IMG/VR virus record: IMGVR_UViG_3300001450_000416 | Location: 1-21,072 of that record | DNA from: a virus | Strand: one strand, 5' to 3' | DNA: 21,072 nt | Notes under the pieces: model-generated | Databases searched by the model: none | The model's input: the letters and a program-made list of their open reading frames with translations, nothing else | Told to the model about the DNA's origin: nothing | Shown here: positions 19,384 to 21,072 of the stretch, one piece after another | Numbering within the stretch: position 1 is the stretch's first letter | How the letters are laid out: each line of letters begins with the position of its first letter | Position numbers and translations under genes: made by a program

Positions 19384-20730
19384 ATGAAAATTGTTGAAGA
19401 TAAAGCCAGGTTACAAGAGTTAACTAAATCATTAGAAACTTCTGATAGTTTTTGGATACCAGTATTTTCTGATTTGTATCGACATTATGTAAATAATCAA
19501 ATAAGTTTTGTTTATATTTATATAGTTAATACGAAAAAAGAGTATATTATACCATTCCATCATAAGGATTGTATATGCCTAGAATCCGAACATCTAAACC
19601 GGTTTACAAGTAAGGCGGATATCTATGTTTTGGGCAAGAAACGCTTTGTAAATTTCTACCATCATAAGACGTTTGACGCTGATTTAGTTGAATACTTTCA
19701 AAGTAATAAAATGTTACAACTAGAGGATACAGATACAAATGCACATGATTGGTTCAATAAGTGGTATTACAATGAAACAAATGTAAATGATTATATTCCA
19801 ATAGTTAAACATTTTGAAAGATGTTCAGAAATGAAAGATAAATTTATGGAATCATTTACAACTTTCAAAAAATCACAATCATTTGAATATTATAATGATT
19901 TGTTTATAGATAATCTATATGCAATAGAAAGGAATGGATTAAAAGTTAATTATGATAAATTTGTAGAAAAGTTTCAAACAAATAATTTAATTGGAGCAAC
20001 AGCCTATACTGAATATAATATCTATACAACTACAGGAAGGCCATCTAATAAACATGGTGGAGTTAATTATGCTGCAATTAATAAAGAAAATGGGTCTAGA
20101 GAATCATTTATCTCAAGACATGAGTATGGTATGTTATTAGAGTTAGACTATGACTCATACCATTTAAGGCTAATTGGAGATATTATTGATTACGAATTAC
20201 CAGAGTCATCTGTGCATACATATTTAGGAAAACAATATTTTGGTAAAGAAGAATTATCTAAAGAAGAATATGAACAAAGTAAAACAATATCCTTTAGGTT
20301 ATTATATGGAGGAGTAGATAAAGATTTTGCAAAGATTCCATATTTTGGTAAGGTAAGAGAGTATACATATAAATTATGGAAGAAATTCCAGAAACAAGGT
20401 TATATAGAAACTGCCATTCTAAAAAGAAAGTTATTTAGAACTGCAATGACAGATATGAATCCAAGTAAATTATTTAATTATTATTTACAGAGTATGGAAA
20501 CAGAATATAATATGGCAATGATAAATGAAGTAAATGCTTTATTAGGACCATATGATACTAAATTAATTTTATATACATATGATTCATTATTATTTGATTT
20601 TGCTATTAAGGATGGAAAACAATTGATATTAGATATTAAAAAGACAATGACGGCAGACAAATTTCCAGTCAAAATCAAAGCTGGAAAAACAATGCAAGAC
20701 TTACAAAATATGACTGATAAACTAAGTTAG
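19384..20730 (+). CDS. Divergent, compact family A DNA polymerase-like protein
   Basis: A 448-residue protein with the family A polymerase order. TTTGRPSN is at 215-222. Motif A is LELDYDSYHLRLI with D255 at the E. coli Pol I D705 position. Motif B is QSKTISFRLLYGG with K300, F304 and Y308 matching K758, F762 and Y766. NYYLQ (N365, Q369) matches N845 and Q849, and motif C is LYTYDSLLF with D400 matching D882. Several usual residues differ: E710 is H260, R754 is Y296, H881 is Y399 and E883 is S401. Residues 20-100 resemble a shrunken 3'-5' exonuclease domain (YIIPFHHKD recalls Pol I YIPVAHD) without a clear DxE. Activity is therefore uncertain. It starts 41 bases after the baseplate unit with no visible ribosome binding site. 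A replication gene here is unusual. Confidence 0.8.
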   Translation: MKIVEDKARLQELTKSLETSDSFWIPVFSDLYRHYVNNQISFVYIYIVNTKKEYIIPFHHKDCICLESEHLNRFTSKADIYVLGKKRFVNFYHHKTFDADLVEYFQSNKMLQLEDTDTNAHDWFNKWYYNETNVNDYIPIVKHFERCSEMKDKFMESFTTFKKSQSFEYYNDLFIDNLYAIERNGLKVNYDKFVEKFQTNNLIGATAYTEYNIYTTTGRPSNKHGGVNYAAINKENGSRESFISRHEYGMLLELDYDSYHLRLIGDIIDYELPESSVHTYLGKQYFGKEELSKEEYEQSKTISFRLLYGGVDKDFAKIPYFGKVREYTYKLWKKFQKQGYIETAILKRKLFRTAMTDMNPSKLFNYYLQSMETEYNMAMINEVNALLGPYDTKLILYTYDSLLFDFAIKDGKQLILDIKKTMTADKFPVKIKAGKTMQDLQNMTDKLS

Positions 20731-20746: not shown

Positions 20747-21072
20747 ATGCAAAGAAACGTAACGGATATATTAAGAGAGTGGTTTTATAGACTACAAAAT
20801 GGTTATGCGATCCAACCGTATAATGATATAGAACTACAGGTTTTATCTAGAATTCTAACAGAAAATAATATAGACCCTAAACCTATTATAGAAAGTTTAC
20901 GTGGAGATGTAATGGAAGCTCCAAAAGAAAAGATACCAGCTGGACTAACTGAAATATTTCATGAATCATTCTTTGCTATAGCACTTGCAGCTATATTAGG
21001 AGGCAAGCCATTATCACCTGATGAGTTTTATACACAAGAGCCTCCTAGTGAGAAATATCCAGATGGGAGAGT
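20747..21072 (+). CDS. Unrecognised protein, cut by the window end
   Basis: This frame is open from the ATG at 20747 to the window edge (108 complete codons) and is closed upstream by a TAA at 20744-20746, so the start cannot be earlier. The N-terminus MQRNVTDILREWFYRLQNGY is a short helical segment followed by a helical region around IELQVLSRILTENNI. Then comes a hydrophobic stretch, SFFAIALAAILGG (about residues 74-87), which is too short and polar-flanked for a confident membrane helix, and a Pro/Glu-rich segment. I recall ILREW-type N-termini on various marine phage proteins but cannot assign a function. There is no ribosome binding site, and the TATTTATA element nearly touches the ATG. 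Confidence 0.6.
   Translation, partial: MQRNVTDILREWFYRLQNGYAIQPYNDIELQVLSRILTENNIDPKPIIESLRGDVMEAPKEKIPAGLTEIFHESFFAIALAAILGGKPLSPDEFYTQEPPSEKYPDGR

Follow-up and report, generated by a model that had tools for sequence, protein, structure and literature searches.

Family A polymerases are textbook enzymes, and some of their active-site residues (E710, R754 and H881 in E. coli Pol I), like their thumb subdomain, are treated as universal. What, then, is a viral protein that belongs to family A by its fold and its catalytic aspartates, and yet is devoid of all of these? The question is raised by an ORF in a 21,072-base virus fragment, the whole of which is called the window here. The initial annotation of this ORF, made from the sequence, hesitated between a polymerase with altered substrate choice and a binding protein derived from a polymerase.

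A family A fold in a T4-type phage

Profile matches identified T4-type tail genes in the window, coding for a tail sheath, a T4 baseplate hub protein, a sheath stabilizer and a head-tail adaptor. At 9-1520, the window codes for a fibre-like protein of 503 aa with repeated ITASGNISASG-type segments.

The ORF under study (19384..20730, + strand) is intact and codes for a compact protein of 448 aa, hereafter the PolA-like protein. It matched Pfam DNA_pol_A (PF00476; E=4.5e-13, residues 208-432, above the gathering score), as did 20 of the 21 family members tested, and phrog_17 in PHROGs ('DNA polymerase', 7.4e-9). The AlphaFold2 model (pLDDT 87.4, pTM 0.86) was aligned with the Bst Pol I large fragment by VIA-align with a Z of 26.8 and an rmsd of 3.4 over 408 residues, covering residues 1-441 of the model. 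The predicted structure thus identifies the protein as a family A polymerase homologue with a full-length fold. The altered family A polymerase of the initial annotation was borne out, as the predicted model has the family A fold throughout and none of our alignments restored the missing residues. Single-subunit RNA polymerases were absent from the top PDB matches. Of the features compared, only the xDS of motif C resembles those enzymes, and it is found in DNA polymerases too.

Active-site residues

Active-site positions were read by aligning the profile of 112 relatives to that of ten canonical PolAs with hhalign (99.8% in the global alignment, local E=1.2e-19). Relative to E. coli Pol I, this alignment pairs R219 with R668, D255 with D705, H260 with E710, R262 with R712, H278 with H734, Y296 with R754, K300 with K758, F304 with F762, Y308 with Y766, N365 with N845, Q369 with Q849, Y399 with H881, D400 with D882 and S401 with E883.

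All the elements lie on the + strand. The T217-G-R-P-S-N222 motif (20032..20049), in which T217, R219 and N222 are invariant, carries R219 at the position of R668, which contacts the minor groove at the primer terminus. Motif A (D255-Y-D257-S-Y259-H260-L-R262; 20146..20169) comprises the catalytic D255, an extra acid, D257, and H260 at the E710 steric gate, all three unchanged in 112/112 relatives. H278 (20215..20217), which corresponds to the triphosphate-contacting H734, is kept in 111 of 112. In motif B, or O-helix (Y296...K300...F304...Y308; 20269..20307), F304 and Y308 never change, K300 is kept in every row bar one unreadable residue, and the R754 position is occupied by Tyr in 101 relatives and Arg in 10. 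The N365-x-x-x-Q369-x-x-E372 element (20476..20499) has its Asn in 111/112 sequences, and its Gln and an extra acid, E372, in all of them. Motif C (20578..20586) reads Y399-D400-S401 instead of the HDE of E. coli. Tyr and Asp are found in 111/111 rows without a gap, followed by Ser (98) or Ala (13), and the AlphaFold2 model places the aspartate at the turn of a palm hairpin predicted at residues 393-398 and 401-406. Because such residues are invariant across 112 relatives, this pattern is not due to chance. It yields a new active-site formula for the family, DxDx[YF]H, [YR]xxxKxxxFxxxY and YD[SA].

The profile alignment and the 112 relatives bear out the initial annotation as regards the residues that it had listed as kept (D255, D400, K300, F304, Y308 and N-x-x-x-Q). 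Its four replacements (E710, R754, H881 and E883 by H, Y, Y and S) were all confirmed as well, but the last of them is unremarkable. E710 and R754 are present in 10/10 canonical PolAs, and H881 in all nine that are readable there. The E883 position, in the nine readable canonical phage and bacterial enzymes, is a Ser in three, an Ala in one and a Gln in two, and S401 is therefore ordinary. Judging from the alignment, three of the substitutions are exceptional and one is not. Position 707, which corresponds to D257, is acidic in 0/10 canonical PolAs, and never an Asp; D257 and E372 may compensate for the lost glutamates.

The register at R754, a contact of the incoming triphosphate in canonical enzymes, is supported by the ten relatives that hold an Arg in the Y296 column (L099, L102, L107, L108, L113, L114, L125, L132, L139 and L141). 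As the only two of them included in the tree, L102 and L113, are located in its unresolved basal part, Tyr at this position may be the derived state.

Published mutants of the Thermus phage Tt72 polymerase indicate how much these positions matter. This active enzyme has a natural Ser at the E883 position, and replacing it with Ala leaves 76% activity (PMC9324360). The mutant of the E710 equivalent keeps 35% activity, and those of the D705 and D882 equivalents keep 4% (PMC9324360). Two of the altered positions, E710 and E883, are thus dispensable to a family A enzyme.

Might the active site have been remodelled for another sugar or substrate, i.e. for ribonucleotides, modified nucleotides, or the synthesis of primers or short RNA-DNA? 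The replacement of the universal E710 steric gate by H260 in 112/112 relatives would fit such a change, as would an xDS motif C like that of single-subunit RNA polymerases. Nevertheless, His is bulky and can still serve as a gate, F304 is kept at the position that selects ddNTPs, xDS is found in ordinary DNA polymerases too, and both complete annotated relatives have a DnaG-type primase, so that priming is already covered. We regard a changed substrate as unlikely; among the alternatives to an accessory DNA polymerase it comes next after the non-synthesising protein considered below.

Loss of the thumb and of the exonuclease site

Between the E-R-N-G (ending at G185) and T-G-R (starting at T217) elements, where the thumb subdomain is found in canonical enzymes, the PolA-like protein has a residual linker of 31 residues (aa 186-216; 19939..20031, + strand). 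This segment has 17-35 residues in all members measured, versus 121 in E. coli Pol I and 119-243 across the ten canonical PolAs. From sequence and secondary structure, we infer that the family is devoid of a thumb. We know of no other family A polymerase without one.

Residues 1-130, approximately, correspond to a vestigial 3'-5' exonuclease-like domain (19384..19773, + strand), as judged from the strands of the AlphaFold2 model (22-28, 40-47 and 52-57) and from a global alignment of the family profile to E. coli Pol I. The positions of D355 and E357 of E. coli are occupied by P26 and by residue 28, the latter being variable and mostly hydrophobic. Position 26 is a Pro in 98/112 sequences and an Asp or Glu in none, and position 28 is mostly Tyr, Leu or Phe. 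The DxE metal site for proofreading is thus gone, in keeping with a vestigial domain. The initial annotation had called the protein compact on account of the 45 residues from D255 to K300, versus 53 in E. coli. That count holds, but the compactness mainly stems from the lost thumb and the vestigial exonuclease domain rather than from this 8-residue difference.

A large family of viral proteins

Close relatives of the PolA-like protein were found at 42 loci, and IMG/VR contains at least 585 matches to it. A search of 84,980 cellular genomes returned four contigs only, all of them in metagenome bins. As we judged these to be viral or mis-binned, we rejected a cellular origin, or a host gene. One of them, L142 (CALBOT010000124.1), was binned with Candidatus Nitrosopelagicus, is 4.1 kb long and codes for a PolA-like protein with 81% identity. 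It is probably a phage contig in the wrong bin and provides no host assignment.

The family forms a single clade with full support and a stem of 4.39 changes per site. The tree leaves its sister group unplaced because long branches meet there. Among close relatives, dN/dS values of 0.07-0.11 indicate purifying selection.

Members in named phages include gp1 of Flavobacterium phage immuto (QQO91919), WWT39333 of Microcystis phage Mel-JY01 and an ORF at position 240919 of LR756508, each with a gene for a 130-residue protein, which we call Y130 (QQO91920 in immuto), downstream. The three bear no more than the labels 'DNA polymerase family A' or 'hypothetical protein', or no label at all. In Mel-JY01 (PP395634.1), the PolA-like protein (50397-51623) and Y130 (51674-52063) are both 'hypothetical protein'. 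Our literature search, which did not cover the family A reclassification of Czernecki et al. 2023, returned no paper describing a phage PolA that lacks the thumb or E710. The family is large and apparently undescribed.

A second polymerase in related genomes

The initial annotation implied that the protein might be the family A replicase of a T4-type phage, and suggested a search for a second polymerase. Such a search, performed in the genomes of relatives, was productive. PolB was found in 6 of the 13 first records and in 10 of 15 further ones, including the 129-197 kb records G011-G014. By coordinate arithmetic it is located ~14-22 kb downstream of the PolA-like gene, in G012 only if that record is circular. 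Its K...YG and YxDTDS motifs are intact where readable. In immuto, the place of PolB is taken by a second PolA, full-length and with an exonuclease domain, and the metagenome bin G021 has a full-length PolA on another contig. All related records that reach at least 15 kb downstream contain PolB or, for immuto and G021, a full-length PolA; those without a second polymerase end before 15 kb. G001, which is the long record for the clade nearest to the window, covers only ~11 kb downstream. As the window is a 21-kb fragment, its own second polymerase, like its Y130, is inferred from these relatives. In the relatives, the PolA-like protein is a second polymerase next to a normal replicative one.

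The implied role as replicase was therefore not borne out. The gene does head a replication operon, and the immuto protein is annotated 'DNA polymerase family A', but an ordinary replicative family A polymerase is very hard to reconcile with the loss of the thumb and exonuclease site and is contradicted by the PolB or full-length PolA of every related record of sufficient length. We give it hardly any credence.

Some features of these genomes deserve mention. The second PolA of immuto (MW353176.1, 37854-40187) has Leu at position 762 and Gln at 883, and its gene adjoins those of GroES/GroEL; this phage also carries 7-deazaguanine DNA-modification genes. In the 484-kb phage LR756508.1, PolB is split between two open frames of 1022 and 625 aa about 4 kb apart (260623-262308, 266583-266900), perhaps interrupted by an insertion or an intein. 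DnaG-type primases (phrog_47) are encoded in the two annotated complete genomes, those of immuto and Mel-JY01, which weakens the hypothesis that the PolA-like protein replaces the primase.

The main rival to an accessory polymerase is a protein that does not synthesise DNA at all, i.e. a PolA derivative that binds DNA, primer ends or nucleotides and recruits Y130, FEN or UvsX to primer-template junctions. The replacement of R754, E710 and H881, the loss of the thumb and exonuclease site, the long stem branch and the occurrence of the protein beside other polymerases are all consistent with it. Nevertheless, both metal aspartates, K300, H278, R219, F304, Y308 and Q369 show little or no variation in the 112 sequences, down to ~30% identity, and a role in binding only does not obviously need such retention. 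We therefore consider this explanation rather unlikely, albeit the strongest of the alternatives.

The replication operon and Y130

Downstream of the PolA-like gene, the relatives have genes for a variable protein, Y130, gp32, UvsX, a FEN-type 5'-3' exonuclease, DnaB and often RNR, in this order. In loci with enough sequence, Y130 is present in 86/87 cases, gp32 in 51/52, UvsX in 47/47, FEN in 44/46 and DnaB in 34/40.

In the window, the gene for the variable protein starts at 20749 and is cut by the window end (20749..21072, + strand); Y130 follows it in relatives. The full protein has 324-736 aa in relatives (e.g. 11364-12443 in L018, 6455-8203 in L021) and is present in 61/103 loci. Its N-terminus is conserved (ILNEWFYRLPNGYA...), it has no Pfam match, and in L018 it harbours a PD-(D/E)XK-like 'PDLIIGGERVEVKS' stretch.

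Y130 lies outside the window and is exemplified by L018 (12449-12841, 130 aa). It harbours an invariant HRKK-x-x-N-x-LY motif, with H68-R-K-K71, N74 and Y77 as invariant residues. The PolA-like gene is found upstream in all 33 Y130 loci with 4 kb of upstream sequence. Of 50,697 phage records, six code for Y130, and these are the same six that have close PolA-like relatives. The AlphaFold2 model of Y130 has a pLDDT of 93.8. No significant match was found in Pfam, PHROG or PDB sequences, and identification with a known T4 protein (UvsY, gp59 or gp33) is therefore not supported. At best, a structural match reached a Z of 6.5 over 67 residues, a level that may reflect no more than a shared arrangement. 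We found no fusions of the PolA-like and Y130 genes among our loci. Pairwise distances correlate with those of the PolA-like protein at r 0.85 for FEN and r 0.76 for Y130, which is weak evidence. That Y130 distances track those of the PolA-like protein more closely than those of UvsX or gp32 is suggestive only.

The presence of UvsX in 47/47 operons, with the loss of the exonuclease site, also brings to mind a low-fidelity polymerase for translesion synthesis or for recombination coupled to UvsX. The actinobacterial PolA2/APEX, with its eclipsed exonuclease, is a precedent (PMC12926913). The operon serves replication in general and contains no pointer to the damage response, however, and APEX is restricted to Actinobacteria, with no thumb loss mentioned in the text consulted (PMC12926913). 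We regard this explanation as improbable.

A candidate accessory polymerase

Our preferred explanation, to which we give an even chance, is that the PolA-like protein would be a catalytically competent, minimal, non-proofreading accessory polymerase of family A, additional to the replicative polymerase. It probably has an auxiliary function and is not the main enzyme that copies the genome. Metal-dependent nucleotide addition is suggested by the constancy of both aspartates and of most substrate contacts, and by the Tt72 mutants, in which the aspartates are essential and the E710 and E883 equivalents only accessory. As far as sequences can tell, the retention of D255 and D400 in the 112 relatives favours an enzyme. 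D257, H260 and E372 might stand in for E710 and E883 in positioning the metals and Y308.

Without a thumb, such an enzyme would hold its primer-template poorly and add only a few nucleotides at a time, in a distributive manner. Y130, with its basic H-R-K-K stretch, could be a second subunit that supplies the missing grip on DNA. The two proteins would cooperate with the operon's FEN-type 5' nuclease to fill short gaps, in effect as a split Pol I, on lagging-strand or recombination intermediates coated with gp32 or UvsX, while PolB copies the genome. We tentatively envisage a two-subunit nucleotidyltransferase with a thumbless core and a thumb provided by Y130. It would be part of the replisome across a large clade of marine T4-type phages and missing from T4 and from almost every cellular genome sampled. 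This is a possibility rather than an expectation. Several points count against an accessory polymerase. R754, with its triphosphate contact, is replaced in most members, a thumbless family A enzyme has no known precedent, T4 matures its Okazaki fragments without a PolA-like protein, and co-location in an operon does not prove joint action.

A widespread viral branch devoid of the thumb and of "universal" residues offers a test of what the active site really needs. The model of the T4 replisome is incomplete for this clade, which has an extra polymerase-like core gene beside PolB and an equally conserved partner, Y130. One member comes from an isolated phage, immuto, which opens the way to biochemical and genetic work. 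As the branch is probably not a replicase, virome surveys based on polA as a marker gene should treat it separately.

Comparison with known systems

Rhodothermus phage RM378, offered in the initial annotation as a related case, is T4-related and has a split polymerase, whose PolA-type parts are in separate genes. The comparison did not hold, as profile searches found no homologue of the PolA-like protein in RM378 or T4; RM378 has no match to Y130 either.

Like the PolA-like protein, actinobacterial PolA2/APEX is an additional family A enzyme whose 3'-5' exonuclease domain is inactivated (PMC12926913). It differs from the viral PolA-like family in being bacterial and having a clamp-binding motif, and the text consulted mentions neither thumb loss nor changes at E710, R754 or H881 (PMC12926913). 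The PolAs of Thermus phages Tt72 and YS40 are phage family A enzymes with a Ser at the E883 position, but they have a full thumb, strong proofreading and E710 (PMC9324360).

The bacterial Pol I large fragment (E. coli Klenow, Bst, Taq) differs from the PolA-like protein in that the latter has E710, R754 and H881 replaced, D257 and E372 invariant, a thumb segment of 31 instead of 121 residues, and the exonuclease residues lost. Both nevertheless share a family A palm and fingers and an N-terminal exonuclease-like domain in the same order, and D705, D882, K758, F762, Y766, H734, R668, N845 and Q849 are kept.
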